A DNA stretch of 64,000 nucleotides from positions 1 through 64,000 of the IMG/VR virus record IMGVR_UViG_3300032236_001129. One strand, written 5' to 3'. Source of the DNA: a virus. The notes beneath the pieces are model-generated. The model was not told the origin of the DNA, made no database searches, and saw only the letters and a program-made list of their open reading frames with translations. Positions 1-29,016 of the stretch are shown piece after piece (within the stretch, counting starts at the first letter, position 1; the number at the start of each line of letters is the position of its first letter). Made by a program: the position numbers and the translations under genes.

Positions 1-127
1 GCATTGATTGGAATAGGATTTCCTTAGACCAGATGGTCTGGATTGCTTGTGTAAGCTGGCTGTTAGCGCCAGAATACGCTGTAGGTGATGCGGCGAGATT
101 GCCGGTACCTGTTACGGCTGATGCCAT
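1..127 (-). CDS. Major capsid protein, N-terminal part (cut by window edge)
   Basis: Only the first 42 codons are inside the window. The product starts MASAVTGTGNLAA and continues to AIQTIWSKEILFQSM, the kind of N-terminus seen in HK97-fold major capsid proteins of phages with a separate scaffold. A clean AAGGAG Shine-Dalgarno lies 11 bases before the ATG (139-144 on the plus strand). It follows portal and scaffold genes in the same leftward operon, which is the normal position for the capsid gene. The family call is inferred from position and this short segment; the rest of the gene is outside the window. Confidence 0.75.
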   Translation of the reverse strand, partial: MASAVTGTGNLAASPTAYSGANSQLTQAIQTIWSKEILFQSM

Positions 128-174: not shown

Positions 175-936
175 TTAACCAAAGATTCCTCGGTCAGTTT
201 GTCCTACTCCTGGGAGTAGCTTACTTCTGACTTTTGCGTATTCAGTAACCGACATAGCAGAAAGTTGTTCTGCCGTAAACTGTTGTTGGTCCGAATTGTT
301 TTCCATGGTTGGTGGCAAAGTAGGCTTTGTTCCTACCATCTCACGACGGGTGGATTGAAGCGCTTGCTGTGCCGAATCTAGAATCTTAGAAGAACGATCT
401 CTAAGATTGGTAATGCTTTGTTCAATCTCATCGGGGTTATTTCCTGAGATTAGATCTACAAGCTCAGGGATAATATTATCCCGCTCTTCTTCTAAACGAC
501 GATTACGATAGTTAGTAAGCTCTGCATACTGGCGTTCACGCTCTAGTAGTGCATCCTTACGAGCAGTTTCTTGACGAAGAGAATCGAGCTGTGAAGCCCA
601 CTCCTTTTCCTTAAGCTCAAGAAGTTGACGAACATCAAGTTCAGCTTCTTCTTTACGCTTTGCTTCTGCTTCTGCTTCAGCCTTTGCAGCTTCAGCTGCT
701 GCTATGCGCTCTTCACGTTCTTTCTTAAGAATGTTAAGTTCTTCCTTAAGAGAATCGATTTGAGGATAGAGCTTTGATTTTTCTTGCTCTCGTACTCGCT
801 TTAGATCGTCTTCAGTGTATCCCTTTTGTTCTGAGAACTGTGGGGCCACTGCTTGAGTTGATTGAGAGCTTGGGACCTCAGAAGCGAAAGCTTCCTGAGC
901 CACTGCATTCTCAACAACAGGTGAATCTGTTGACAT
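175..936 (-). CDS. Capsid scaffold / assembly protein
   Basis: A 253-residue, highly charged protein with a long predicted coiled coil (roughly residues 38-160, rich in Glu, Lys, Ala and Arg heptads) and a flexible N-terminus. It lies between portal and major capsid genes, where tailed phages encode the scaffold that templates procapsid assembly. The C-terminal part (about 205-253, ending GQTDRGIFG) would be the capsid-binding end, by analogy with other scaffolds. No protease domain is visible in it. Function is inferred from position and composition. Confidence 0.75.
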   Translation of the reverse strand: MSTDSPVVENAVAQEAFASEVPSSQSTQAVAPQFSEQKGYTEDDLKRVREQEKSKLYPQIDSLKEELNILKKEREERIAAAEAAKAEAEAEAKRKEEAELDVRQLLELKEKEWASQLDSLRQETARKDALLERERQYAELTNYRNRRLEEERDNIIPELVDLISGNNPDEIEQSITNLRDRSSKILDSAQQALQSTRREMVGTKPTLPPTMENNSDQQQFTAEQLSAMSVTEYAKVRSKLLPGVGQTDRGIFG

Positions 937-1046: not shown

Positions 1047-2771
1047 TTAATTAGTTTGCCCCTTGAAATCATCCTCTGCTCCACCGTCTTTGTCGGCTGC
1101 ACGCCACTGTGGAAGCTTAGTTCCATAGGCCTCAGTTACGATTTCTGACTGCATCTGAGCTAGAGTCTGCTCTTCAAACGGCGTGACCACTCCAGGTTGT
1201 CCCATAGGGCCAGGTCCTGTTCCATCACCAGGTTCTGCTCCTGGAGGCATGGTGCCATCTGGCATCATTCCAGTAAGAGAGGTGATAGCGGAGTTGATCT
1301 GTTGCTTAATAAGGTTGACGGCTCCGTCAGCCTTAGCATCCTGGATGAGCTCTGCACGAATTTCTTCGAGCTTCTCTGCTGGGAACTCTTCGCCAAGCTG
1401 ACGTAGAGCACCTTCACGGCTTTCCAAGTTCATATTCATCTTCTGCTGGATTTCGTTGAGGACGATGAGTTTGTCTAGTGGAAGAGGTTGTGGGAAGTGA
1501 ACGATAGTCTCGTAAGTGATTGGATCGTTCAAATCTAGTTGTGTGAGCTGGTTTGGCTTGATTGGGCCATTGAACATTGGGTTGTACGTAAACATCTCTG
1601 GCTCTTTAAATGCCAAAGTACGTAGAACTAGCTCGTTGACTCGGCGTAAGCCCTCTCCATATTGTACAAGCTTTTGCTGGTAGCGATTCATCAAAGGCTG
1701 GTATTGAATGGAGAGCGCAACACCTGAGGTATTAGAAATAGGTTGTACTTGTCCAAGAGCTGACTCTGGGACACCGATCATTTCGTGCATAGCAGTCTTG
1801 ATCATCTTTAGGTACTCAAGAGCACCGGTAAGGCCTTGTCCACCGCCTTCTAGGTTAAAAACCTGTGCATCCTTAGGAAGACCGCCCCAAACCTTCTTAG
1901 GGCCCTTCTCAAGTGCTGAAGCCTTAGCACCGGTGATAACGGTAACTGGGGCTGCGTGGTAGTTAACGATATCTGCAATGTCAGTTGCTGTTTCGTTATA
2001 GGCACGGTTAAGAGTAATAACGTCGTGGCAATCAGATAGTCCCCATGGGGATCCTGAAACACGTACGTTAGGAATATGGATGACTGGAACAATGCCGATA
2101 GGGTTTGGACGGCTATCGATCATTTCATCGTTGATATATTCTTCGATGCGATCATCAGTCAAAATTTCAGTATATGTGTAGACCTGGCGTGTACCTTCTA
2201 CAGAAGTACCCCAAAAACGATACTTGAGCTTGAAACGAATCAAGCGTGAGCGATCGTGTGGGTGGAACTCAGGAAAACAGAAAGAAGCATTGAGTGGAAG
2301 GATACGTACCTTACCAGGATGCTTGCCACCTACAGAATCTTCGTAAGCTTCTTCGTAAGCTACCTTAACGAAGCAGTCTCCGGATACGCCGCCTTGCTGG
2401 CCCATCTCCCAAAGAACACCGTGCTTATCGTTATCAATTTCCCACACACGCTTTAGGATGTCAGGAATGATTGCCTCTGTGGCTACTGGACTGCGGAAAG
2501 ATACTGCACGTCCAAATGTAAAGTTAATAATAAAATCTGTAAAGGCACGATAGTAGTTATATACCATCTGCGATTCGCCTACTTCACGGCGGTAAGACCA
2601 GTGGTGTCCAAGATACATTGCCCAGTTTAGTGAGTAACGGTTTAGACGTGGTCCATGGACTTCGAACTCTTCATCTGCAAGTTCTACAAGTCCCAGTGGG
2701 GAAATGGAGATTGTTAAATCACTCGACGCCGCTCTATACGACGGAGGACTAAAATCAATACCACCACTCAT
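1047..2771 (-). CDS. Portal protein
   Basis: A 574-residue protein of the size and layout of SPP1 gp6-type portals: a Trp/Tyr-rich N-terminal clip and wing region (RYSLNWAMYLGHHWSYRREV), a central stretch with SPWGLSDCHDVITLNRAYNE typical of the portal core, and a segment MIGVPESALGQVQPISNTSG before the long crown helices. Portals form the dodecameric ring at the capsid vertex through which the terminase pumps DNA. It lies directly upstream of the scaffold in transcription order. The acidic and proline-rich C-terminus (from about residue 500) is probably flexible. Confidence 0.9.
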   Translation of the reverse strand: MSGGIDFSPPSYRAASSDLTISISPLGLVELADEEFEVHGPRLNRYSLNWAMYLGHHWSYRREVGESQMVYNYYRAFTDFIINFTFGRAVSFRSPVATEAIIPDILKRVWEIDNDKHGVLWEMGQQGGVSGDCFVKVAYEEAYEDSVGGKHPGKVRILPLNASFCFPEFHPHDRSRLIRFKLKYRFWGTSVEGTRQVYTYTEILTDDRIEEYINDEMIDSRPNPIGIVPVIHIPNVRVSGSPWGLSDCHDVITLNRAYNETATDIADIVNYHAAPVTVITGAKASALEKGPKKVWGGLPKDAQVFNLEGGGQGLTGALEYLKMIKTAMHEMIGVPESALGQVQPISNTSGVALSIQYQPLMNRYQQKLVQYGEGLRRVNELVLRTLAFKEPEMFTYNPMFNGPIKPNQLTQLDLNDPITYETIVHFPQPLPLDKLIVLNEIQQKMNMNLESREGALRQLGEEFPAEKLEEIRAELIQDAKADGAVNLIKQQINSAITSLTGMMPDGTMPPGAEPGDGTGPGPMGQPGVVTPFEEQTLAQMQSEIVTEAYGTKLPQWRAADKDGGAEDDFKGQTN

Positions 2772-3615: not shown

Positions 3616-5208
3616 TTAAAAGAAAGGATTAGAACTTACCTCAACGGTAGGCATAACCATTTCTTGGGTGAGAGAACAAGCCAAGGCTAAAGAATCTACG
3701 AAGTCATCGTGTGCGTGTGCCTCATCTGGCGCTGCTACGAGGAAATTAGGGCCTTTATACTGGACTTCCGCATCAATCATCTGCTGGTAGAACTTCTTCC
3801 AGATACGAAGTCGTCTGGTTTTAGCATGGGCTGGCCATGAAACCATTTGACGTTGTACTAGGGCTTGAAGGTGCTTCCACCGCTTAGACTGCTCTGTTGG
3901 ACTAGATGTTACCGGGATTACCTCAGCACGTGGCATAAGGATCTTAAGACGCCCAGCCACCGCATCACCAACACCGTTGGCATCTACTCCGATAGCTAGA
4001 ACGTCATAATTAGATAAGAACTGTTGGATTTGGAAGTATTGCTCTTCCCAGTCATCTCCCTGAAGTTCAAGCCAATTCAAAACTCTATGGTCATAGTAAC
4101 CGTACTCATCAGGACGATCCCAGTCTACCCACACTACTGTGACAACTGTTGAGTCCATCTTACGAGCTGGGTCAACGCCAACTACTACAGGAGATCTAAA
4201 GTGACTCTTTACAATCTCTTGTGAGGTATCACCAAGCTCATCCATGATGGAAGAGGTGATGAACATACCACGCTCAAGCAACCACTTGCAGTTATAGGAG
4301 AGCTGGAACTCATCTGAGTCCTCGCCAATACGTAGCATCTCTTTCTTAATGAACTTGCCGTAGTTTTCGTTGTACTTAACCACATCACGCCAGTCCCACT
4401 GGAAGTGGTTCTGCTTTGCACGTGATCCGGTTTGACGGCGCTTGTTAAGTTGGATAGCTCGATAAAAGTTATTCTTGTGAGTTGTAGGGGTTCCGGTCTT
4501 AACGATAGTAGCGTTGTAGTACGCACCCATCGGTGCAATAGACTTGGAGACCACAAAGTCATCTGCTTCTTGACACTCATCAATGATGATTAAGTGGAAG
4601 GACTTAGATTCGATCTTAGCTCGTGGGTTAGCTGTCATCATCATAAGCGTAGAGCCAGACTTCTTAAGCTTAATGTTCTTAGTTACACCAGGGGTCTTGG
4701 TAGGGATATCATCGATATCTGGATCTCCAAAGATCTCCATAGCACGCTCGCTGGTAAGGCGTGAAACTGTACGTCCATATAGAGTTTCTACCTGGTTCTG
4801 AACTGGTGCGAACATACCCACCCAGATTCCATCACCAAACTTACCCAGAAGCTCTGGATACATAATAGCTAGGCGGGGAAGGATTACCATCAGGGTAGAG
4901 ACGGTATTAGCAATAGTTTCTGACTTACCTGACTGACGTGAAGCTAAAGCTGTTACTTCTTCACCGTCGTTAATAATAACCGACTCAATAATGCGTCGGG
5001 CTAGAGGTGCTTGATAAGGGTGGAGTTCATGGCCTACAAGGAGCTCCATAAACTGCATGATCTTATCTACAAGAACTTTAACGAACTCTTTAGAGAGCTC
5101 ATCCATTTCCTCTTCATCATCCGCAGGATCTATCTCCTGGGGTTCTAAATCCAGTTCAAGGTCATCAAGGTCAACTTCATCAAAGATTTCGTCCTCAATG
5201 TCACTCAT
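3616..5208 (-). CDS. terL: Terminase large subunit
   Basis: A 530-residue packaging motor. The N-terminal ATPase shows a Walker A variant RQSGKSE (91-97) and Walker B LIIIDECQE (206-214), with the coupling motif KTGTPTT near 238. The C-terminal RNase H-like nuclease shows the expected acidic residues: VGVDPARKMDS (Asp346), IGVDANGVGD (Asp408) and HAHDDFVDSLALA near 498-510. It cuts concatemeric DNA and pumps it through the portal. The first 35 residues are almost continuously acidic, which is more than usual for the family. No small terminase is recognisable next to it. Confidence 0.95.
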   Translation of the reverse strand: MSDIEDEIFDEVDLDDLELDLEPQEIDPADDEEEMDELSKEFVKVLVDKIMQFMELLVGHELHPYQAPLARRIIESVIINDGEEVTALASRQSGKSETIANTVSTLMVILPRLAIMYPELLGKFGDGIWVGMFAPVQNQVETLYGRTVSRLTSERAMEIFGDPDIDDIPTKTPGVTKNIKLKKSGSTLMMMTANPRAKIESKSFHLIIIDECQEADDFVVSKSIAPMGAYYNATIVKTGTPTTHKNNFYRAIQLNKRRQTGSRAKQNHFQWDWRDVVKYNENYGKFIKKEMLRIGEDSDEFQLSYNCKWLLERGMFITSSIMDELGDTSQEIVKSHFRSPVVVGVDPARKMDSTVVTVVWVDWDRPDEYGYYDHRVLNWLELQGDDWEEQYFQIQQFLSNYDVLAIGVDANGVGDAVAGRLKILMPRAEVIPVTSSPTEQSKRWKHLQALVQRQMVSWPAHAKTRRLRIWKKFYQQMIDAEVQYKGPNFLVAAPDEAHAHDDFVDSLALACSLTQEMVMPTVEVSSNPFF

Positions 5209-8184: not shown

Positions 8185-11100
8185 TTACTGGAAGTCGCTA
8201 ACTGGAACGTGTACAGGAGAAGCTGGGTTGCTGTGAGGAGCAAATGTGACGTGAGGAGTTGCAAACTTCTTTGCACCTTTGAGTACGGTCTCCTTAGTAG
8301 CATTACCTCTCTGTACAACCTTACCTGTGCCAGGAATGTTTGATCCAGCTTCGTGTAGTTGAACAATACGTCCTTGGCCATGAACTGGGTGAACCATATC
8401 GTTTCCAACATTTACGCTGACTGGGCCAGCAAAGTTTCCAAATTGCTTGCTACGACCTTCGCTTGCACGACCAGCTTTAGCAGCATATGTTGGCTTTTCT
8501 GCAGGTACAGGTAATTTCTCACCATATACACGTTCCATGCTCTTTGGAACTGGCTTAATCTTTGCAGCAGCTTTAGATCCTGGTTTAGGTTCTTTAACTG
8601 ATTTAACAGGGCCGCCACTAAGCATATTCTCAGGTGTACGCATTGGCTGTGCAGCGATGCGCTCATTAAGAGTCTCAATGCTTACGCTGCCTTTGCGTGG
8701 CTTAGCCTTAGGCATGTTAGCTACAGGCTCAAACAAGGTAGTATTTTTCATCTTACCAAAGATCTTATTTTTTTGAGACTCTTCGCTTACTATTGAGTCA
8801 GTTGTTTTGTTTGCTTCGTTTCGTCTCTTTTGAGCTTTTGCTCCTTCAAACTTAGGCTCTACATAGTTAGCTTCACGTGGGTTTTCGCTTTGTCCCTGTG
8901 GGCGAAACTTGCTGAACTGATCAAGACTACGAAGCTCTTTAGCTTCTTCTCTACCAATGTGTCCAGCCTTTACAGCGGCAGCAACATCTGTTTTTTCTGG
9001 AAGATTTTGCATACGTGCGAATACTTCGGTATCACGTACTGGGCCACGATCATCAGCCATAACTTTAATAGACTTTTGACCTACAGCGCCCTTCTTACGA
9101 GCTTCCTTAGGAGTTAAGCCGATGGTATTTTTTTCCATCTTATAGGCAGCACCAACTTGGTTAACAATCTTTGCTTCATTGGTATTAAGACCTGCTGTAG
9201 CACCTGGACGATATACAGTTTTAATTGTATCTCCAAGCTCAACTGTACGCCATTGACGTCCAGCAGATACTTCTCCCTTTGCCTTACTAAATGCAGGAGA
9301 TTCTACGCTACCTACAGAACGTAGGCTAGGCTCACCAGTTTTACTTGGTGCTCCGCCGTATAGTTTTGTATAGGTAGTCTTTCTAGGGTTAACAATAGTA
9401 TTTTGTCGCTTCTCTGCTTCAGCAGCGGCAGCAGCCTTAGTTTGCTTCTGAACAGACTTAGCAGTCTTGTATTCGCTAGAAGTCATGTAAGCCTTTTTCT
9501 CTTCTGGAGAAAGAGTCTTGAGTTCTGATCTAGACTTATACTTTAAAGCTCCTGTAGCAGCTTTCTTTTTATATTCAGCACGCTCTTTAGGGGTACGACG
9601 ACCAAGCTCTTCAGATGTAAGGTATTCATATTCGTTAGGATTCTTAGGTTGCTCTACAATTCCGCTTTGGACCTTAGGCTTTTCACGAAGCTGTGGATTA
9701 AATTCAGTCGCTTCTTCCTTAGTAATCTTTCCCTGCTTAAGGGCAGTATTTACAGCCTTGGTATCACGAACCAACATTTCAGGTCCACGTCCCTTAGGTG
9801 GAACAGGGTTGGTTTGGAAGTGGAATGGGCGCTTTTGAGAAGTCATAGCCATATCGCCTGAAGCAATAGCTTTTCCGACCTTCTTTCCTGCACTCTTTCC
9901 AGCTGCTTTCTTTGCAGCTGCTTCCTTGTCAGAGGTCATAATAGAGCCCTGTGCAATGGCGTAATCAACGGCATGCATCTTTTGACCTTCTGGAACATTT
10001 GTAAGTGGGTGTTGAATCTTTCTCCATACATCGTCGCTATGAAGTGTCCAACCTTCATGGCTACTTACTGTCTCAGGTTCATGTGCCTTTATAGACTCCA
10101 ACATTCCTGATTTAGAGCTAACTGGCTTAGGAGCAGAACGTCCTACGCTAGTAACAAGGTTATTGTGCTCTGCACCTTCAACATACCCAGGAACTTGCTC
10201 AGCTCCCATTAAAGATTCAGTAGTATCTTCTGGAATATGAACCATAGGCTTTTCTACAGCAGTGCGAGTAAAGTCGTTAGGAAGTGATAGTGGACTTACA
10301 CGGCGAGGTTGTCCTGGCTCTGTCTTTTCCCATACAAATGGGTGAACAATACCCTTTTCATCTTCCCAACCCTTATGATGAGGTTGAACTTCATTAGCAA
10401 CATTAATCTTACGCTCAGAATCAGCCTTAAGAACTGCGGCAGACATCATAGCGTCAGTTTTTCTTTCAAACTTTTCTCTGCTTAAACCTGGTGCGCTTTC
10501 AACATCTTTCTTTTCTAAGCCAGGAATGTGGCGCATAGCGTATGCCATTCTCTGGTGAGGTCCACCAAGAATGTCTTGAGTAGTCTTAGGACGAGGATCT
10601 GTAGGCTTGAAACCTTCAACTTCCTTACCTGTACGCTTAGCTTTACGGTGTGCAGCTTGTGCAAGGCTTAAAGCATGTGAATTTACAGTACGTGTTGCTA
10701 CAACGTTTCCTGCAGCATCTTTAACGTCATATGGCTCATCTCCAGCAAATGAGATAGCTTCTGGTGCTTTACCAGTTGCAGCTGATACTACTGGGCGGGC
10801 TTTCTCAAGAGCTGCTTCAGCACGCTCTTTGAAAGATGTTTGATGGTAATCGGTATCTGCAGCTAATCCTCTATCCATAGGACGAAGAGAAGCTGAAGGA
10901 AGCATAGGATCATATTGAGGCTTACCAGGAATTGAAGGCTTTTCTTTGGTGAAGCGCATAGCTGCTTCTGTAATAGCCTGTCCTTCACGTGCACGTTGCT
11001 GACGCTCTAGCTTATCTGCATATGCCTTTTGAGCTTTTTCAGAGTTAGCTGCCTTTTGTTCAGGAGTAAATTCTTTAGGCTCTGTTTCTATAGCAGAAGA

Positions 11101-11676
11101 AGAAAGATCCCCCACTCTAACAGCTGCACCAATAGTAGAAAGATCAGGTCCACCAAGTGTTACGGGCTTTTCAAAGCGTCCACGCTTAGGTGGCGTAAAA
11201 ACTGTAGTTAAAGACTTTTCTTTTTCGGCAGCTTCTTTCTTAGCCTTTTCCTTATTAACTTCAAAATCACGTGTAGGATCTAATTCAATGCCTGCAGCTT
11301 TAGCACGACGTCCTTTACGGGCAGCATGTACTTGGGTTTTAAATGTTTCTTCTTTAGCAATTTTTTCTTTAGTTTCTTCAGCTTTGCGCTTTTCATAAGC
11401 TTTGCCACGAGGAATAGTAACTTTTTCAAGTCCAGGTACGCCTTCTAGCTTAGCAAGACCTGCTTGTAGGCGTGCTTCATCCTTAGCTTGACGCTCTTCT
11501 TTAGTTAGAGCTCCACCAATATTGGTAGCTTCACGGACACGACGATAGCGCTTACGTAGTTCTCTGCGCTCACCTGGTGTTGCAGGCTTAGTAGCTTCTG
11601 GTTCTTCCTTAACACCAAGGTTATCTGCGATAACTTGATCTTCGGGAGCAATGTCTAGTTTTTTCTTTTTCGCCAT
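8185..11676 (-). CDS. Giant disordered Lys/Ala/Glu-rich protein
   Basis: A 1163-residue, strongly charged protein of low complexity, with little predicted globular structure. It contains loosely repeated KERAEYKKKA / EEKKAYMTSSEYK segments near residues 690-740 and many short Pro/Lys linkers. Only the C-terminus looks folded: NDMVHPVHGQGRIVQL (about residues 1090-1105) resembles the opening strand of CarD/KOW-type SH3-like domains. No tape-measure transmembrane helices are visible, and its place upstream of the small HNH cluster does not fit a tape measure. It could be a DNA-condensing or internal virion protein. This is inference; the protein is the longest in the window. Confidence 0.8.
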   Translation of the reverse strand: MAKKKKLDIAPEDQVIADNLGVKEEPEATKPATPGERRELRKRYRRVREATNIGGALTKEERQAKDEARLQAGLAKLEGVPGLEKVTIPRGKAYEKRKAEETKEKIAKEETFKTQVHAARKGRRAKAAGIELDPTRDFEVNKEKAKKEAAEKEKSLTTVFTPPKRGRFEKPVTLGGPDLSTIGAAVRVGDLSSSAIETEPKEFTPEQKAANSEKAQKAYADKLERQQRAREGQAITEAAMRFTKEKPSIPGKPQYDPMLPSASLRPMDRGLAADTDYHQTSFKERAEAALEKARPVVSAATGKAPEAISFAGDEPYDVKDAAGNVVATRTVNSHALSLAQAAHRKAKRTGKEVEGFKPTDPRPKTTQDILGGPHQRMAYAMRHIPGLEKKDVESAPGLSREKFERKTDAMMSAAVLKADSERKINVANEVQPHHKGWEDEKGIVHPFVWEKTEPGQPRRVSPLSLPNDFTRTAVEKPMVHIPEDTTESLMGAEQVPGYVEGAEHNNLVTSVGRSAPKPVSSKSGMLESIKAHEPETVSSHEGWTLHSDDVWRKIQHPLTNVPEGQKMHAVDYAIAQGSIMTSDKEAAAKKAAGKSAGKKVGKAIASGDMAMTSQKRPFHFQTNPVPPKGRGPEMLVRDTKAVNTALKQGKITKEEATEFNPQLREKPKVQSGIVEQPKNPNEYEYLTSEELGRRTPKERAEYKKKAATGALKYKSRSELKTLSPEEKKAYMTSSEYKTAKSVQKQTKAAAAAEAEKRQNTIVNPRKTTYTKLYGGAPSKTGEPSLRSVGSVESPAFSKAKGEVSAGRQWRTVELGDTIKTVYRPGATAGLNTNEAKIVNQVGAAYKMEKNTIGLTPKEARKKGAVGQKSIKVMADDRGPVRDTEVFARMQNLPEKTDVAAAVKAGHIGREEAKELRSLDQFSKFRPQGQSENPREANYVEPKFEGAKAQKRRNEANKTTDSIVSEESQKNKIFGKMKNTTLFEPVANMPKAKPRKGSVSIETLNERIAAQPMRTPENMLSGGPVKSVKEPKPGSKAAAKIKPVPKSMERVYGEKLPVPAEKPTYAAKAGRASEGRSKQFGNFAGPVSVNVGNDMVHPVHGQGRIVQLHEAGSNIPGTGKVVQRGNATKETVLKGAKKFATPHVTFAPHSNPASPVHVPVSDFQ

Positions 11677-12983: not shown

Positions 12984-13754
12984 CTACCAGCCAAGTCCAC
13001 GTACGTGGATGTTGGTGTTTTCATTCTTAATTGATCCTGCTGGGTTCCAAAAACGCTGCAATGTAATAACGTCTTGTAGATCAGATCCAGGCCAGATTGT
13101 TCCACTGGCAGGTGTATCTAGACCAACAGCAGTTGCTGTTTCAAACTCAATCCAGCTAGAGTCATCATTATCGCTAAGTGCTGTGATTGTTACAGGATCT
13201 GAACCAAAATCATATTCGCTATTGTCGATCCAAACCTTGTCACCTACACGTAGCCCAACAAGTGCGCTATCTCCCCAACTGTTGGAGTCGTATGCATATA
13301 CACGAACAGTCTTATCTGTTGAGACGATTCCATTAATTTCTGGGTTGTGATAAGACATGAATAGGTTGAAGTTCAACTTAGTCAACATTTCATCAGCTTG
13401 AGCAACAGTCTTACGAACTAGATCTGGAACTACTTGTTCAATTCCTGGATCTTCATCTCCCGCATAATTTGGAATAAATGAAGGAAAGTCTGAGTAACCA
13501 AGTGCAGCAATAATATGGCTGTCAGCTGGAGTACGACTTACAAGATTGTTAAGGGTTTGGTAGTAATCTCCTGTTTCAAGGATATCACTAACATACTTTG
13601 TTGTGCCTGACCATCCTACGTTCTCATTACCAGCTGTATAAAGCTCAGCTGCTGAACGACCGTGATCTGGTTGCATAGCCATGTTTCCCCACACGAAGTC
13701 AACACGGACATTGCCCGCATCGTCAAGGTGGTATTCAGGAGTTGGACCTGACAT
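12984..13754 (-). CDS. Presumed virion protein, paralogue A, with degenerate PASTA-like domain
   Basis: A 256-residue protein, one of three tandem paralogues. Residues 12-33 carry the shared module (DDAGNVRVDFVWGNMAMQPD). Residues 86-110 carry a second shared block (GYSDFPSFIPNYAGDEDPGIE). Residues about 109-156 (VVPDLVRKTVAQADEML...) look like a weakened PASTA domain. The C-terminal 100 residues are strand-rich and differ from the paralogues. No signal peptide. I infer a capsid- or tail-surface protein in which the first module anchors to the particle. Confidence 0.7.
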   Translation of the reverse strand: MSGPTPEYHLDDAGNVRVDFVWGNMAMQPDHGRSAAELYTAGNENVGWSGTTKYVSDILETGDYYQTLNNLVSRTPADSHIIAALGYSDFPSFIPNYAGDEDPGIEQVVPDLVRKTVAQADEMLTKLNFNLFMSYHNPEINGIVSTDKTVRVYAYDSNSWGDSALVGLRVGDKVWIDNSEYDFGSDPVTITALSDNDDSSWIEFETATAVGLDTPASGTIWPGSDLQDVITLQRFWNPAGSIKNENTNIHVRGLGW

Positions 13755-13804
13755 TTTTACTTCCTATCTCTAGAGTGTTTAAGACCCTTACGTCTAAGGG
13801 AATA

Positions 13805-14821
13805 TTAAGCTAGTACCCAAGTACCTACTGTTGCGTTAGTATTTGGATTTGCAAGTACTCCGCCAGTAAGTGCAGTCAACTTACATACAGTTCCGCCTGA
13901 GTTGTAGGAGTCATTGTCTTCTACAGTGTTAACTGTCCAGTTTCTATTCAAACTTGTATTGGAGTTTCCAGCAGTTGTAATTGTTGCTCCAGCTGTAGGC
14001 TTTGTTGTACGGCCAAGTAGGAACATGTAAATTTCTCCGCCAGCACACGCAGCATGTCCTGGGAATGAGTTAGTTGAGAATCCAGCTACTGGGTGAGTTG
14101 TTACTACGTAGTTATAAACTACGATATTAACAACAGTTCCTGGGTTTACCTTAGTTCCAGCAGCAATGCTTTGTGACTTAACATGTAAGTTATTTCCTGA
14201 TGTAGCTCCATCTGTTGATGGGTCAGTGTTACCAAGAACAAGACCTGCAGCTGTAAGAGCCGCCTGAGCTGTTTCTGGATCAACCAAACCTACAAGGTTA
14301 GGTACTGTTGGGGCGGTATAAACCTGGTAATGGATTACATCTGTTGGGTTCTTAATACCAGTCGTTAGCTGATGAACTGTTCCATCATTTGCTAAAGTTC
14401 CAGGAAGTGTGCCATCGGCGTTTGAAGTGTTAAATCCAGCATTAGCCAATCTAGCTTGAGCAGCGCTTTCGGTTAGACCTTCAATATTTGGAACAACTGC
14501 CTCTAAACCGGTATCTCCATCTCCAGCATAGTTTGCAATAAACTGTGGGTAGTTTGAATAGCCAGTTGTAGCAATTTCATGGTTATCCCATGTAAAGGTC
14601 TGTTGACGATAATTTCCGCCGTCTCCTGTACCAAAGTTAAGAACATCCCAACCTGAAGCAAGAGATTGACTTCCTACTTCTTTAGAAACAGTCCAGTTAC
14701 CATCGGTGGTGATTTGACTTCCATTACCTGTCCAGGTACGTTGATCATTTGGTTGAATAGGGAAAGGTCCCCATACAAAGTCAACACGTGGATTTCCTTT
14801 ATCATCTACTGGATATGTCAT
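13805..14821 (-). CDS. Presumed virion protein, paralogue B, with two PASTA domains
   Basis: A 338-residue protein. Residues 6-28 hold the family module (DDKGNPRVDFVWGPFPIQPN); residues 87-110 hold GYSNYPQFIANYAGDGDTG. Two PASTA domains follow: VPNIEGLTESAAQARLANAG (about 110-169) and VPNLVGLVDPETAQAALTAAG (about 173-237), with the usual GTKVNPGTVVNIVV end. The C-terminal 100 residues are Thr/Asn-rich strands. PASTA domains in bacterial kinases and PBPs bind cell-wall muropeptides, so this could help a virion hold on to the Gram-positive wall. That last step is inference. Confidence 0.8.
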   Translation of the reverse strand: MTYPVDDKGNPRVDFVWGPFPIQPNDQRTWTGNGSQITTDGNWTVSKEVGSQSLASGWDVLNFGTGDGGNYRQQTFTWDNHEIATTGYSNYPQFIANYAGDGDTGLEAVVPNIEGLTESAAQARLANAGFNTSNADGTLPGTLANDGTVHQLTTGIKNPTDVIHYQVYTAPTVPNLVGLVDPETAQAALTAAGLVLGNTDPSTDGATSGNNLHVKSQSIAAGTKVNPGTVVNIVVYNYVVTTHPVAGFSTNSFPGHAACAGGEIYMFLLGRTTKPTAGATITTAGNSNTSLNRNWTVNTVEDNDSYNSGGTVCKLTALTGGVLANPNTNATVGTWVLA

Positions 14822-14973
14822 TAGTTGCGGCCTTTCGTCGTATACTCAACAAACTTGACTTCTTGCTTAGAGCCACAGTCTTCACATGGGTTGTAAAAAG
14901 CTTTTAGGCTCTTTAATACATCAGTAGATTGTTCTGTGTCATTGCACTTAACACACTTAATTTCAAATTTCAT
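14821..14973 (-). CDS. 50-residue zinc ribbon
   Basis: Starts MKFEIKCVKCNDTEQ and later has NPCEDCGSKQEVK: two CxxC knuckles about 28 residues apart, a classic zinc ribbon. AGGA before the ATG; TAATG overlaps with the virion genes on both sides, so it is translated with them. Function unknown. Confidence 0.65.
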   Translation of the reverse strand: MKFEIKCVKCNDTEQSTDVLKSLKAFYNPCEDCGSKQEVKFVEYTTKGRN

Positions 14974-15605
14974 TATAACCATCCTGCTGTGTTGTTTTTG
15001 GCTGGGTCATTTGTAAAAGCAGTAAACCAGATATCTGAAGGAGAGCAATCAATGTTTACTTCATTGCCCCAAGATTGATAGGAACCAACCACCATTCCAT
15101 CAAGGTCTTTTCCTGTAAAAACAGTTCCAGTTTGCCAATCAATATAAGTAATGTAGCTAGCAGGAATATACGACCAGAAAATAATTCCTGAATCATAACT
15201 TCCGCCTTGCCAATCATATTTATTTGCTCCACCGGTAAATGTAGCCTCTTTAAGAAAAGCAGGGTTTACACCACAAGTGCGAAGATACTCAATTAAATCT
15301 GGCCAACGCCCATCTCCAGACTTAGGAGAGTTATAACAAACTCCTACTGAAGGCCAAACAAATTGATTATCATTCCATTGACCATTAGCATTTGGGGAAT
15401 AAGGGTAAGCATCCCAACGAGTACCGCTAATAGCGTGGCTGTCTCCAGCACCTAGTACAGGTGGGATATATTGCCAAGAATAATTATTAAGTTCGCCAGG
15501 GCGTGAAACATAGTCGTCAGTTCGATCTAAATTTGGCTGCATGGGCATATTGCCAAATTCATACGCTACGATGGCGTTTCCAAGACTATCACGGTCTATT
15601 GTCAT
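14973..15605 (-). CDS. Presumed virion protein, paralogue C
   Basis: A 210-residue protein with the same N-terminal module as its two neighbours (DSLGNAIVAYEFGNMPMQPN, residues 6-25). The rest is rich in Trp, Tyr, Gly and Asn, with many short strands. One segment (WPDLIEYLRTCGVNPAFL) may be a remnant of the PASTA fold present in paralogue B. No signal peptide or membrane segment. Same inferred role: a particle-surface protein with a shared anchor and its own exposed domain. Confidence 0.65.
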   Translation of the reverse strand: MTIDRDSLGNAIVAYEFGNMPMQPNLDRTDDYVSRPGELNNYSWQYIPPVLGAGDSHAISGTRWDAYPYSPNANGQWNDNQFVWPSVGVCYNSPKSGDGRWPDLIEYLRTCGVNPAFLKEATFTGGANKYDWQGGSYDSGIIFWSYIPASYITYIDWQTGTVFTGKDLDGMVVGSYQSWGNEVNIDCSPSDIWFTAFTNDPAKNNTAGWL

Positions 15606-15645: not shown

Positions 15646-16212
15646 TTAGGCTTTTTGTACGTATGTATAAATCTTTCCGCCAGAATAGATATCGTGTTTA
15701 CAGGCAATCTCAATAGCCTTACGTAAAATCTTCTCTGCAGCCTCTGGACTTTTAACTTTATTGTATTCTAAAGCCTCAAGTGCTCCTAGAGCCACATCTC
15801 CACCTGAACCTGCGTAGTAGACGTTGCGGGCTTCACGGTCCCACGAGTAGTCTTCGAAGATTGGGTAGAGTACGCCACGGACGGAAATGATAAGGCTAGA
15901 GTCATGACCAGCAGCATCGCCGTCATCTTTGGCGTCGTAACCGGCTTTTATAAAAGTCTCACGCATCTGGGGGATAAACTTATTTGTAATGAACATATCT
16001 AAATTTTCATTAGCACGTGGTTTTGGAGGCTTCCAACCAAATTGGGTAATGTTTCCACCACGGGATGCACCAGAGACAGCAATTAGTACACCATTGTTAT
16101 CTACAACCTTAGAGGTAGCAAGATCCATATAGCGACCGTCTTCACTAGATGCACGGCTATCGCACCCAATGACAGACCAACCATCACCTTGTATAGCTAC
16201 AAGCGTTGTCAT
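15646..16212 (-). CDS. Proteasome beta-subunit/HslV-like Ntn hydrolase
   Basis: A 188-residue protein that reads like a proteasome beta-type subunit without a propeptide. It starts M-TTLVAIQGDGWSVIGCDSR: removing Met1 would expose Thr2 as the N-terminal nucleophile. Counting from that Thr, Asp17 and Arg19 (CDSR) are present, with a Lys near position 33-34 (ATSKVV) and SGAS at the Gly47 position. AGSGGDVALGALEAL matches the Ser129/Gly region, and DIYSGG gives the Asp166-x2-Ser169 pair. All expected catalytic residues are therefore there. It may cleave phage structural proteins or peptides, or assemble with or mimic the host proteasome. The fold call is firm; the target is unknown. Confidence 0.85.
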   Translation of the reverse strand: MTTLVAIQGDGWSVIGCDSRASSEDGRYMDLATSKVVDNNGVLIAVSGASRGGNITQFGWKPPKPRANENLDMFITNKFIPQMRETFIKAGYDAKDDGDAAGHDSSLIISVRGVLYPIFEDYSWDREARNVYYAGSGGDVALGALEALEYNKVKSPEAAEKILRKAIEIACKHDIYSGGKIYTYVQKA

Positions 16213-16249
16213 AGAACCCTCTCAGTAGTTAGGTGTAAATACTATCAGA

Positions 16250-16756
16250 CTAATCGATGGTGCCTTGTGTAAAGTTTTGGGGGTTGCTCTGAGGCAGGTT
16301 ACCTGCAGTAACTGCTTGCCAGCCCTTGTTCTTGTATCTAGATAGAACAGTATCGATGTAATCAGAGGTAGATGAGTACCCTTGGTAGTCATCCCACTCA
16401 TCGGGGGTAACTCCTGGGTATCCAACCATAGTGTTATCACGCATAAGGATAGCTAAGTACTGCTCGTCCTTGTTATACCCAATCTTCTGGGCACGGGCAC
16501 GACCTAGCGGGTTAGAGCTCTTAGCATCCATAACTTCATAGCCAACTCCAAAATCAGGATCCCCACTAAATACAGAGGGCATATTAGATGCAAGTACATC
16601 TAAGCCATCATTACGGGATCGGGGGGCTGGGCCTTGAACTCCTAGAGCACGCTCTGATCCAAGCTCTTGTGTTCTCTGTAAAAGGCTCGTACGCTTATTT
16701 GGGTATAGACGACCGTTACTACCACGGTAAAAACCCTTAGGGACGTCATCAGCCAT
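16250..16756 (-). CDS. KTSC-domain-like protein
   Basis: A 168-residue protein. The C-terminal part (about 88-150) has the KTSC layout: GYNKDEQYLAILMRDNTMVG, then YPGVTPDEWDDYQG, then SSTSDYIDTVLSRYKNKGW. KTSC domains are often fused to Lys-tRNA synthetases or nucleases and are of unclear role. The N-terminal half (basic, with NGRLYPNKRTSLLQRTQELG) is probably flexible. Confidence 0.6.
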   Translation of the reverse strand: MADDVPKGFYRGSNGRLYPNKRTSLLQRTQELGSERALGVQGPAPRSRNDGLDVLASNMPSVFSGDPDFGVGYEVMDAKSSNPLGRARAQKIGYNKDEQYLAILMRDNTMVGYPGVTPDEWDDYQGYSSTSDYIDTVLSRYKNKGWQAVTAGNLPQSNPQNFTQGTID

Positions 16757-17046: not shown

Positions 17047-17084
17047 TTCGTCTTCTTCCGGCGGGTATCTTGGTGTATATACAG

Positions 17085-17157
17085 CTGGTCTGCTTGGACT
17101 CGAACCAAGAACCTGCCGATTAACAGTCGGCTGCTCTGCCAATTGAGCTATAGACCA
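17085..17157 (-). tRNA. tRNA-Asn (anticodon GTT)
   Basis: The minus strand folds as a tRNA: acceptor TGGTCTA pairing with CAGACCA (one A-C mismatch at the seventh pair), D-arm with AGCTCAATTGGCAGAGC, anticodon stem with CTGTTAA (GTT anticodon), and T-arm CTTGG-TTCGAGT-CCAAG. CCA is not encoded. It is the only tRNA found in the window and has its own candidate promoter about 40 bases upstream. Confidence 0.93.
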
Positions 17158-17160
17158 AGA

Positions 17161-17197
17161 GGAGCCCTAGTAGGTGGTTTAGTTCTACTAAGGCTCC
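17161..17197 (-). other. Long stem-loop at the 5' end of the tRNA transcript
   Basis: GGAGCC plus TAGTAG pair with CTACTA plus GGCTCC: a 13-position stem with one mismatch and an 11-base loop. It lies between the promoter at 17193-17214 and the tRNA. It may protect or process the pre-tRNA leader, or act as a weak terminator for the Hsp20 gene; there is no U-run. Confidence 0.6.
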
Positions 17198-17214
17198 TAA
17201 TTAATATTCTACCA
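17193..17214 (-). promoter_or_regulatory. Extended -10 promoter (copy d) for tRNA-Asn
   Basis: Minus strand reads TGGTAGAATATTAATTAG: TG-n-TAGAAT extended -10 followed by the family's ATT-n2-(A/T)TAG element. It is one of seven matching copies. Confidence 0.6.
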
Positions 17215-17216
17215 CA

Positions 17217-17666
17217 TTAAGCGATAGTAATCACCTTTGGCTTCTTCTCCTCGGGTAGCTCTTGCTTAAGGGTGATGCGTAACATGCCATCTTTGAGCTC
17301 TGCACCATCAACCACCACATATTCAGCTAGAACGAAGTTCTGCTTGAAGTCACGGGTAGCAATTCCCTTATAGACAGCTTCCTCTTCAGATGCCTCTAAA
17401 CGGCCTTCTACGGTCAGCTGGAGCTCTTTTACCGTAATGGTGATATCTTCCTTAGCAAATCCCGCTACAGCGATCTCTAGGATGTATGAGTCATCCTTTT
17501 TAATGATGTTGTATGGAGGATACCCGCTCGATTTTGAGCTTGAGACACGAGAAAAGGTGTCAAAGAGTGGATCAAAGCCGATTGCCCAGCGATTGAACTG
17601 AGGATATAGGCTTGAGATGTTGAGTTCTGATCTATCTGGAGTGAATCCAGCGTTCATTATTGCCAT
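17217..17666 (-). CDS. Small heat-shock protein, Hsp20 family
   Basis: A 149-residue protein with an alpha-crystallin domain (about 48-138): PPYNIIKKDDSYILEIAVAGF, EDITITVKELQLTVEG, and GIATRDFKQNFVLAEYVVV, then the LKDGMLRITL hairpin. The C-terminus ends KVITIA, the I-x-I anchor used in oligomerisation. Hsp20 genes occur in many T4-like and cyanobacterial phages and are thought to help fold virion proteins. ATG at 17666 has AGGAG eight bases before it. Lies alone, downstream of a divergent intergenic region. Confidence 0.92.
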   Translation of the reverse strand: MAIMNAGFTPDRSELNISSLYPQFNRWAIGFDPLFDTFSRVSSSKSSGYPPYNIIKKDDSYILEIAVAGFAKEDITITVKELQLTVEGRLEASEEEAVYKGIATRDFKQNFVLAEYVVVDGAELKDGMLRITLKQELPEEKKPKVITIA

Positions 17667-25710: not shown

Positions 25711-27120
25711 ATGGAGATAGCAGTATTTACCGAGTCTTACGAACCAGGTATGGGTGCAAAGCGACGTCAAATCCTTATGGCACCATATGAGGGAGGCGTA
25801 AAAATCTGGTCACGGTTAACCGATGGAACTAAGGGCCCACACAATAAGTGGGAAGATACTTCATTGGCTGAGCTAAGTGACTTGGTTAGTAGCTCAGAGC
25901 AATTGACAAGGACCCCTGTTGGTGTATATGTTACGGCAGCAGATGAGAAGGCAATTGCAGACAAGGGTTACTCTCCTGTCTTAGGTACCAAGGCATGCAA
26001 TCAACATGCTAAGGCTGACCCAAATACAGATACAACTCCGTTCGCAGAAAAGCTCTGTGAACTCCACGATCAAATCCTAGTGGGGGATGATTCATTGGAT
26101 ACATATGTAATCGATAACCGACGTCAAGCTGGCGCTACAGTTCCATTGGTAATGCCAGTCTCAACACAAACAAACGAGGATGCTATGCCAACTGTTAAGC
26201 AATCTTCTGGTGGCAAAATTCTCAGCGTCAATCTTGCAACAGTTCCACGCAAGGAGCTAGCTGAGCGATATGTTCACCGTAAGATCTGGGGTCAAGAAGA
26301 CTTTGCAGTCTATGACCACGCACGTGCTAAAGGTACTAACATTCTTATCTATGGCCCAACTGGTCCTGGTAAGACTACATCTGTTGAAGCGTGGGCTGCT
26401 GAACGTGGCTTGCGCCTAGCAACAATCTCTGGTAATGCGTCTATGGAACCAAGCCAAATGACCGGCAAGTTCGTCTCTGATGGCGAAGGTGCGTTCATGT
26501 GGATTGACGGTCCCGTAACTGACGTAGTACGTAACGGTGGTGTTCTTCTGCTTGATGAGGTTAACTTCATCAATCCTAAGATCTATACCAACCTATATTC
26601 ATTGACCGATGGTCGTCGTAGCATTACTTTGCTTGACCATCATGGCGAGACTATTGAGGCTCACAAAGACCTCACTATCTTCGCTACTATGAATCCAGAT
26701 TACATCGGCACCACACCGCTCAACTTTGCGTTCCGCAATCGCTTCGACATTCAAATCCCATGGGATTATGACGATGCCGTTGAGGAGAAGTTGATTAGTT
26801 CTAAGGCTCTTCGTATCCTTATGAAGCAACTTCGCACAGAGGCTGCCAAGGGTCAATACGAGACTCCAATCTCTACCAACATGGGTATGGAGTTCATCGA
26901 CCTTATCGACTCTCTCGGCTATGAGTTTGCAGCCGAGAACTTCATTGCTCACTTCAGTACAGATGAGCAAGCCAGCGTACGCATGGTCTTCCAGACTCAT
27001 GAGCACAATGTCAAGTCTGACTTCGGTCTCGAAGCCAACATAAACATTGACCAACCTGCTGATAAGAGTCTTGATGATCGCCTGCAAGAATGGGCACAAC
27101 AAGTATCCGTTAACGTCTAA
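25711..27120 (+). CDS. MoxR/CbbQ-type AAA+ ATPase
   Basis: A 469-residue protein. Residues 1-150 form an unusual N-terminal domain with a WGR-like pattern (KIWSRLTDGTKGPHNKWED). The AAA+ core follows: Walker A GPTGPGKT (215-222), Walker B VLLLDEVN (278-285), sensor-1 TMNPDYIGT (Asn328) and arginines FRNRF (342-344). The order of these motifs and the TNLYSLTDG region fit MoxR/NirQ-type chaperone ATPases. Such ATPases work with VWA-domain partners to remodel or metallate target proteins; the VWA gene comes next, ten bases away. The substrate in this phage is unknown. Confidence 0.88.
   Translation: MEIAVFTESYEPGMGAKRRQILMAPYEGGVKIWSRLTDGTKGPHNKWEDTSLAELSDLVSSSEQLTRTPVGVYVTAADEKAIADKGYSPVLGTKACNQHAKADPNTDTTPFAEKLCELHDQILVGDDSLDTYVIDNRRQAGATVPLVMPVSTQTNEDAMPTVKQSSGGKILSVNLATVPRKELAERYVHRKIWGQEDFAVYDHARAKGTNILIYGPTGPGKTTSVEAWAAERGLRLATISGNASMEPSQMTGKFVSDGEGAFMWIDGPVTDVVRNGGVLLLDEVNFINPKIYTNLYSLTDGRRSITLLDHHGETIEAHKDLTIFATMNPDYIGTTPLNFAFRNRFDIQIPWDYDDAVEEKLISSKALRILMKQLRTEAAKGQYETPISTNMGMEFIDLIDSLGYEFAAENFIAHFSTDEQASVRMVFQTHEHNVKSDFGLEANINIDQPADKSLDDRLQEWAQQVSVNV
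26161..26172 (+). repeat. 12-nt motif copy 8
   Basis: TCAACACAAACA in codon frame 1 (STQT) of the MoxR-type gene. Confidence 0.8.
27035..27046 (+). repeat. 12-nt motif copy 9
   Basis: CCAACATAAACA in codon frame 2 (ANIN) near the 3' end of the MoxR-type gene. Confidence 0.8.
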
Positions 27121-27129
27121 GGAGGCTAA

Positions 27130-29016
27130 ATGCTTATAGATGAATTAGATGATTCTCCGTGGGGTGGAGATGCTCGTTCTGAGCAAGACCAAGAGCGCAT
27201 AGTTCAACTAGGTGCTTTATGTCGTGTGTATGAACAAGCTGACCGAGTTCTCACTGGTGACCCAGTCATAGTCAACGTCATGCCAGATGGCCCTGCGCCA
27301 GCGTGGTCTGACGGCGCTGCTATCTATATCAATCAGCAAGAAATTACTGATATGGATTTAGAAACGCTAACTCAAGTCACCGGCCTGAACTATCATGAGC
27401 TAGCCCATCACTTCTATACTCCTCGCAAGGGTACAGAGCTAATCAAGTGGGTACTAGCCAACAACTATATGGAATCCGCCAATATGCTCGAGGACCAGCG
27501 CATCGAGACTTTGCTATGCGCTCGTTATCCAGCTGTTGCTCCATATCTCACAGGTACAGTAGCTAGATGGCTTGGTGAGACTCCTGAGGAACGACAGGGT
27601 GTGTATGCTCTCATCCGTGGTCGCAGGTATCTGCCAGTAGAACTACGTGAAGCATATCGTGATGAGTTTGCATTCCCGGAACTCATACCTGCTATCGTAG
27701 ACATCGTAGACAAGTATCGTCTGCTTGCATTCCCACGGGACTACAAGACAGCACAAGTACTTATCCAACGATTCAATGACGAAGTACTCAAACCAATCCG
27801 TGGTGACTTTCCACAGCTATCTGGTGGTCCCAATGGATGTGGTCATCGTGATCCAACAATCAAGGGTCGTCCTGAACCTGGCAAGATGCAAGAGAGAGAT
27901 GCTCAGCGTGCCGGCAATATGGGCAAGCCAGAGTCTGTCTATATGCCAATTCCTAAAGCCAAGGATGATGCCAACACAAACAGCACGCCAGACAAAAGCA
28001 ATCCATCTACAATGCCTGCTCCTAACAGTGCAGCGGAAGCGCTTGCTATACGTGAGGCGATTCAACAATCTAATCAACCACCATCTCTAGAACCAGGCGA
28101 AGGCCATCATGAGAGCAAGGGTGGTGTTCCTGATAATCTCCAGAGTATCTTGGATAACACTATGGAGGATATCTACAACAACAAAGCAGTTCAACAGGAT
28201 ATCAAAGCCAAGCAGCGTGTAATCGTTGGTGGCGATGGTAAGTTCGATGCGTCTACTAAACATGGCAAATTCGACCTCACCGATGTCCCTACTGACACCA
28301 TCATCATGTATCGTGCGTTTGCCAAAGAGTTGGAGCGCCTGCGTGATGAGTGTGAGCCTGGCTGGAACAAGGGTGTACCTAGCGGTAAGCTCAACGTTCA
28401 GCGTGTAATCAATGGATGTGAGATCGACGAAGCCTTTGACCGCTGGGAAGAAGGTAATGATGGCGCCGACGTGGAAGCCGTTATTCTAGTAGATCGTTCC
28501 GGATCCATGGGCTCTGACAACAATGACCGCAATGCTTCTCTTGCATGCTGGACTATCAAGCGTGCGTTGGAAGCCATCGATGCTCCAGTTACCGTGTATG
28601 CATTCGATGACAGGTCAGAGGTTGCGTATACCCGCTCCGAGCGTGCCCACAAAACACGCTTCAAATTTATCTATGGCAGCGGTGGTACAAATCCGTATAG
28701 CTCGTTAATCGCAGCCGAGCAGCTGCTTATGTCTTCTCGTAAGAAGAATAAGATGCTGTTTATCATCACCGATGGTGCCTTCAATCATGAGAAAAATGAT
28801 GAAGTCATCCAACGTATTAGCCGTCGAGGTATCTTGACTGCTATGACTCTTATCATGCGTGATAGAGACTATGAGTACTACAGCAATCGTGGCGAGAGCG
28901 ATAAGACTTTCCGACACGATGCTGAAGTATATGGCCGTATCAATTCAGCCCGTGACTTAGTGCCGTTTGCTAAGGCTGTAGTAATGGGTGCAATCAAGAA
29001 GCGCAGAAGCGCCTAA
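27130..29016 (+). CDS. VWA-domain protein with N-terminal HExxH motif
   Basis: A 628-residue protein, partner of the MoxR-type ATPase. The N-terminal domain has YHELAHHFYTPRKG: His89-Glu90-x2-His93, the zinc metallopeptidase motif, with NMLEDQRIE (118-126) as a possible third-ligand helix. Residues 270-335 are a low-complexity linker. The C-terminal VWA domain has a complete MIDAS: DRSGS (455-459), GGT (Thr520) and TDGAF (Asp548). This resembles CobT-like VWA partners, but the HExxH region is unusual. AAGGAGG precedes the ATG. It may be a metal-dependent peptidase or a metal-binding remodelling factor powered by the ATPase; activity is inferred. Confidence 0.85.
   Translation: MLIDELDDSPWGGDARSEQDQERIVQLGALCRVYEQADRVLTGDPVIVNVMPDGPAPAWSDGAAIYINQQEITDMDLETLTQVTGLNYHELAHHFYTPRKGTELIKWVLANNYMESANMLEDQRIETLLCARYPAVAPYLTGTVARWLGETPEERQGVYALIRGRRYLPVELREAYRDEFAFPELIPAIVDIVDKYRLLAFPRDYKTAQVLIQRFNDEVLKPIRGDFPQLSGGPNGCGHRDPTIKGRPEPGKMQERDAQRAGNMGKPESVYMPIPKAKDDANTNSTPDKSNPSTMPAPNSAAEALAIREAIQQSNQPPSLEPGEGHHESKGGVPDNLQSILDNTMEDIYNNKAVQQDIKAKQRVIVGGDGKFDASTKHGKFDLTDVPTDTIIMYRAFAKELERLRDECEPGWNKGVPSGKLNVQRVINGCEIDEAFDRWEEGNDGADVEAVILVDRSGSMGSDNNDRNASLACWTIKRALEAIDAPVTVYAFDDRSEVAYTRSERAHKTRFKFIYGSGGTNPYSSLIAAEQLLMSSRKKNKMLFIITDGAFNHEKNDEVIQRISRRGILTAMTLIMRDRDYEYYSNRGESDKTFRHDAEVYGRINSARDLVPFAKAVVMGAIKKRRSA
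27971..27982 (+). repeat. 12-nt motif copy 10
   Basis: CCAACACAAACA in codon frame 2 (ANTN) within the linker of the VWA protein. Confidence 0.8.

Follow-up and report, generated by a model that had tools for sequence, protein, structure and literature searches.

A phage gene for a proteasome-like N-terminal threonine hydrolase, probably exchanged between phages, and comparative evidence against a role in head maturation

The window analysed here comprises the first 64,000 nucleotides of IMG/VR virus record IMGVR_UViG_3300032236_001129, a record of 100,206 bases with a 79-base direct repeat common to both ends, which therefore probably maps as a complete circle of 100,127 bases. An intact open reading frame of 188 amino acids occupies exactly positions 15646..16212 of the window; the coordinates given in an initial annotation are exact, with the correction that the frame lies on the minus strand, the plus-strand reading containing many stops. 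The protein starts M-T-T-L, with Thr1 directly after the ATG-encoded methionine, and no frame 5' of the ATG at 16212 is able to encode a propeptide. A sigma-70 promoter scan gave matches that were rarer than in shuffled sequences. The gene and the positions within it that matter below are:

15646..16212, minus strand: proteasome-like N-terminal threonine hydrolase, 188 amino acids, without a propeptide (open reading frame, profiles, model)
16217..16223, minus strand: ribosome-binding site GAGAGGG preceding the ATG at 16212 (sequence)
16207..16209, minus strand: codon of catalytic Thr1 (T2 before removal of the methionine)
16159..16161, minus strand: codon of the Asp17 equivalent (D18), invariant in 55 relatives
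16108..16110, minus strand: codon of the Lys33 equivalent (K35), invariant in 55 relatives
15901..15945, minus strand: acidic pore-loop segment (residues 90-104), AGYDAKDDGDAAGHD; modelled with the lowest confidence and aligning with the acidic pore loop of BPH
15805..15807, minus strand: codon of the Ser129 equivalent (S136), in GSGG
15691..15693, minus strand: codon of the Asp166 equivalent (D174); the Ser169 equivalent is S177

Every residue of the proteasome beta catalytic set listed in the initial annotation is present. In mature numbering, with Met1 removed, Thr1 is T2, Asp17 is D18 and Arg19 is R20; the Lys33 equivalent is K35 (mature position 34), the Gly47 equivalent is G48 inside SGAS, the Ser129 equivalent is S136 in AGSGG, and the Asp166 and Ser169 equivalents are D174 and S177 in DIYSGG. 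T2, D18, R20, K35, G48, GSGG and D174 are all conserved among 81 close copies, and across a broader set of 55 sequences, which takes in phage and bacterial proteins of 21-39% identity, M1, D18, K35, G48, G135, G137, A141 and G143 never vary, and T2, S136 and D174 are kept in at least 90%. The equivalents of Arg19 and Ser169 vary in distant members, with Gln in Actinomycetia phage DSL-LC01 and Thr elsewhere. Eleven pairwise dN/dS values range from 0.05 to 0.14, and these are rough since some dS values exceed 1; they point to strong purifying selection on the gene and, together with the intact frame and the retained catalytic residues, bear out the earlier statement that it is not a decayed remnant.

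The protein matches the proteasome-like Pfam family PF00227 with 30.4 bits in a protein scan (cut-off 22.4; 19.3 bits, over a C-terminal stretch, in a six-frame search of the genome), and the 'peptidase HslV family' PHROG 1040 over residues 1-187 (E=4.2e-25). An AlphaFold model (pLDDT 91.9, pTM 0.88; weakest in residues 91-100) predicts the fold of a proteasome beta subunit, in which four flanking helices fit H1-H4 and both helix pairs are present, including helices 50-58 and 71-89; score, catalytic residues and predicted fold all place the protein in PF00227. Foldseek returned BPH as the top PDB match (E=9e-12, TM 0.72-0.74), followed by HslV and proteasome beta, a sequence profile search likewise placed BPH first (E=1.5e-7), and 39 predicted viral structures matched at E<=1e-3. 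The Pfam, PHROG and BPH matches are far too strong to have arisen by chance. BPH is a tetradecameric double ring whose pore loop is long and acidic; no unfoldase is known for it, and published assays found no protease activity on model substrates (PMC5777263). The window protein resembles BPH (5OVS, 5OVT, 5OVU) in being its best fold and profile match, in its acidic pore-loop segment and in having no dedicated unfoldase, but identity in the structural alignment is only 17-19%, and the tree joins the phage proteins with some bacterial ones in a group separate from BPH (support 99/94), so that the protein does not cluster with BPH; several long branches make deep placements approximate. Within the phage-containing group, the window copy sits in a well-supported clade of viral-contig sequences.

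With HslV (ClpQ) the protein shares the fold, the Thr1/Lys33 chemistry and a compact core, but no HslU is named among the Pfam families listed for the other reading frames, its pore segment is acidic rather than basic, and it misses both HslV equivalog models (NF003964, 23.3 versus 137 bits; TIGR03692, 22.1 versus 157.75 bits). Phage members of PHROG 1040 are homologous over most or all of their length, carry the same catalytic set and measure 170-230 amino acids, with 24-38% identity to the window protein in the named phages; they are annotated variously, as 'ATP-dependent protease subunit' in DSL-LC01, 'protease' in Pitbull (gp77) and 'Ntn_hydrolase-like' in D'Alembert, and further annotated members occur in Tenacibaculum pT24 and Moorella MTATph1. 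Compared with these, the window copy falls in its own well-supported clade of probably freshwater phage sequences. Phage proteasome homologues were described in 2021 as PPH and AAH by Fuchs et al. (PMC8665760), and the window protein resembles both in being a phage-encoded group I proteasome-like protein. It is not a PPH, which has about 140 amino acids and lacks H2, whereas the window protein has 188 and does have a helix in the H2 position; that it is an AAH is possible. The catalogue of Fuchs et al. reports no actinobacterium-specific phage with AAH (PMC8665760). The gene belongs to a known kind, the phage group I proteasome-like proteins, and lies in a new clade within it; by its sequence, the product appears to be an active, self-standing enzyme of the HslV/BPH/PPH/AAH kind.

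The same superfamily includes the ligase connectase and many members without an assigned function (PMC8665760), and the protein might accordingly be a connectase-like Ntn amidase or ligase, monomeric or of low order, that is specific for a single target, for example a counter-defence enzyme. We consider this unlikely because the window model has the first helix pair, which connectase lacks, and is without the two-helix insertion that connectase has between strands 3 and 4.

Searches of IMG/VR returned 273 and 364 relatives, so that at least 364 contigs carry one; the best 80 were fetched in each case. Sixteen records of named phages match, including DSL-LC01, Microbacterium phage Pumpernickel and Arthrobacter phages Pitbull and Hum25. 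The terminase (about 52%) and MCP (about 71%) of the window are nearest to those of Streptomyces phages such as BRock and LuckySocke, and this suggests that an actinobacterial host is likely; a motif search for the host marker WhiB within the window gave one poor match only. Description as a freshwater phage rests on the lake origin of DSL-LC01 and on inference, the IMG/VR records used here carrying no habitat. Among bacterial genomes, a sample of 379 from the phylum of one relative yielded four matches at E<=1e-10. Three bacterial genomes (L277, L278 and L279, one of them a deltaproteobacterial MAG) have homologues that start MTC[IV] and group with the phage proteins, and these may be of prophage or of cellular origin. 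A distant homologue (about 26% identity) is carried by plasmids of about 200 kb in Bacillus licheniformis and B. paralicheniformis (NZ_CP021670.1, NZ_CP014843.1 and NZ_AP025341.1), which are possibly phage-plasmids.

The initial annotation noted that Actinobacteria have 20S proteasomes and suggested that the protein might mix with host subunits. With the actinobacterial beta subunit PrcB it shares the fold and catalytic residues. The DSRAS and D-x2-S-GG motifs are of proteasome-beta type, and the Streptomyces phage relatives of the terminase and MCP point to an actinobacterial host, both of which would be consistent with a protein that joins or mimics the host 20S proteasome, in mixed rings or by use of host Mpa/ARC. 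However, the protein has no propeptide and no match at E<=1 to TIGR03690, the model of the bacterial 20S beta subunit, so mixing is unlikely; it also falls far short of the archaeal 20S beta model TIGR03634 (29.2 versus 224 bits), and no alpha-type companion is present, the genome search revealing a single proteasome-like gene. We therefore regard this reading as very unlikely. Orthology to PrcB or to HslV was likewise rejected, the curated models being missed widely. Another suggestion, that the protein may form its own chamber, is plausible.

The initial annotation placed the gene in a late head or virion operon, which is only partly correct: the gene and the head genes are read in one direction, but the terminase follows only after 10.4 kb, and most of the genes in the block between them are variable. 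The immediate surroundings of the gene are:

14973..15605, minus strand: downstream neighbour, present in only 12 of 80 loci
16250..16756, minus strand: upstream neighbour with weak similarity to the KTSC domain, adjoining the gene in 33 of 74 loci
17217..17666, minus strand: small heat-shock protein Hsp20, encoded close to the gene in 22 of 69 loci

None of these variable neighbours is a stable operon partner that would indicate a substrate, and genomic context gave no functional clue in the catalogue of Fuchs et al. either (PMC8665760). The Hsp20, whose closest NCBIfam models are IbpA/IbpB, was considered as an obligate partner of the protease and rejected, given its presence in only those 22 loci and the failure to find it in three of ten records searched; it lies with a tRNA-Asn upstream of the gene (17084-17666), and both are variable among relatives. 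Similarity to PASTA domains, unusual for a phage, is strong in 13805-14821 and weak in 12984-13754 (together 12984-14821), the former protein being present in 42 of 75 loci. A 1163-amino-acid protein at 8185-11676, present in only five of 66 related loci, has no Pfam, PHROG or NCBIfam match. Further away, 34370-35848 encodes a queuine tRNA-ribosyltransferase-like protein (PHROG 887, E=7e-53), possibly of the DpdA type that acts in the modification of DNA with deazaguanine.

A Pfam scan of most of the other open reading frames named no ATPase of HslU, ClpX or Mpa type, and hence no cognate HslU, among the 25 of 28 matched families listed; the AAA families listed fit a gene of MoxR/CobS type at 25711-27120. 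This ATPase gene is followed by one that may carry a VWA domain (together 25711-29016), and DSL-LC01 likewise has an AAA ATPase paired with a 'cobalamin biosynthesis protein'. As a general AAA+ partner of the protease the MoxR/CobS-type ATPase was rejected: it also occurs in DSL-LC01, but it is unannotated in Pitbull.

The initial annotation favoured a role in head maturation, so the head genes of the window were compared with those of other phages:

3616..5208, minus strand: terminase large subunit
1047..2771, minus strand: portal protein
175..936, minus strand: scaffold-like coiled-coil protein of 253 amino acids, in which no protease domain was found
1..127, minus strand: N-terminus of the MCP (MASAVTGTGNLAA..., about 358 amino acids in full), which spans the record junction

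A prohead protease that cleaves the scaffold or capsid protein during assembly would fit the strand shared with the head genes, the presence of the gene in all 16 long relatives (a set found through this gene) and in all three records of 90 kb or more that were retrieved by way of the MCP, and the lack of a known prohead protease: neither a search for family S78 nor other scans of this genome found a recognisable one, as the initial annotation had noted for the portal-scaffold-capsid stretch. Despite this, we consider such a role exceedingly improbable. The MCP has a clear ribosome-binding site before its start at MASAVTGTGNLAA and only about 41 residues ahead of the matched core, hence no large N-terminal pro-domain, and a separate gene encodes the scaffold-like protein. 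In Streptomyces phage LuckySocke the genes for terminase, portal, scaffold and MCP are ordered as in the window, the MCP is 71% identical and no head protease is annotated, but profiles run against all six frames of the complete genome, which recovered every positive control, detected no proteasome-like protein; this argues that the head type does not need one. Two LuckySocke proteins annotated as 'peptidase' were rejected as Ntn homologues, gp42 having no Pfam match and not being matched by the profiles, and gp181, which the profiles also miss, reading like a secreted NlpC/P60 enzyme. Nor does the enzyme appear to substitute for a missing head protease, because Arthrobacter phage Pitbull carries a capsid maturation protease (gp4) along with a homologue at the other genome end (gp77), and Psychrobacter phage D'Alembert carries a head maturation protease (DAL_62) along with the homologue DAL_45, which sits among clustered small genes that are transcribed in the opposite direction; the identities of gp4 and DAL_62 are depositors' annotations.

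Nearly the same enzyme, moreover, occurs in phages with an unrelated terminase and MCP. Contigs G004 and G014 have a terminase of DSL-LC01 type (80%) and no match to the window terminase or MCP, yet their copies of the gene are 76-79% identical to that of the window, while the copy of DSL-LC01 itself is about 38% identical. Conversely, G017 has an MCP 88% identical to that of the window and a proteasome-like copy only 48% identical. In Pitbull, D'Alembert and Pumpernickel the homologues lie apart from the head genes. The comparisons with G004 and G014, G017, LuckySocke, Pitbull and D'Alembert argue that the enzyme evolves and is transferred independently of the head, and suggest that the gene is a compact module exchanged between unrelated phages that probably share a host group. 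Downstream of the close copy in G004, the next genes (L271:11586-13047) encode a histone-deacetylase-family protein (PF00850, E=1.5e-52) and a dual-specificity-phosphatase-like protein.

In long relatives that have the same terminase, and both genes on one stretch, the gene precedes the terminase by about 7-12 kb and is read in the same direction, a position that may reflect late expression or packaging into the virion. This co-orientation, conserved in one phage lineage, is what would be expected of a virion-borne enzyme, packaged or ejected with the DNA and acting early on host proteins. We hold this to be quite improbable, since the position varies among other phages (the genome end in Pitbull, the strand opposite the terminase in D'Alembert, a tRNA cluster in Pumpernickel) and the protein is compact, its 188 amino acids including no extra domain.

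We favour, with moderate confidence, an N-terminal-threonine peptidase that is accessory and exchangeable, probably forms a BPH-like homo-oligomer with no ATPase to itself, and acts in the infected cell. From the sequence and known rules, host methionine aminopeptidase would remove Met1 and expose Thr1; the subunit, according to the confident AlphaFold model, would fold as a proteasome beta subunit and would assemble into a homo-oligomer, most likely a double ring like that of BPH; and peptides or unfolded stretches would pass the acidic pore loop and be cleaved without a dedicated ATPase. Comparative genomics suggests that the enzyme would serve as a host-takeover or proteostasis accessory in the infected cell, not in head maturation, and our best guess at its targets is the turnover of host, misfolded or defence proteins.

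To the 2021 catalogue these results add a large clade of phage sequences under strong selection, for which the closest cultured relatives, judged by head genes, are Streptomyces phages. What is new is that the gene is abundant in viral contigs, that it is apparently passed between phages whose heads are unrelated, and that comparative genomics speaks against a head role and so separates this proteasome-like enzyme from head maturation. More tentatively, the clade may represent an ATPase-independent phage proteasome-like chamber that remodels the infected cell's proteome and has spread horizontally among otherwise unrelated freshwater actinophages; if so, it would remove defence or host proteins, or recycle amino acids.
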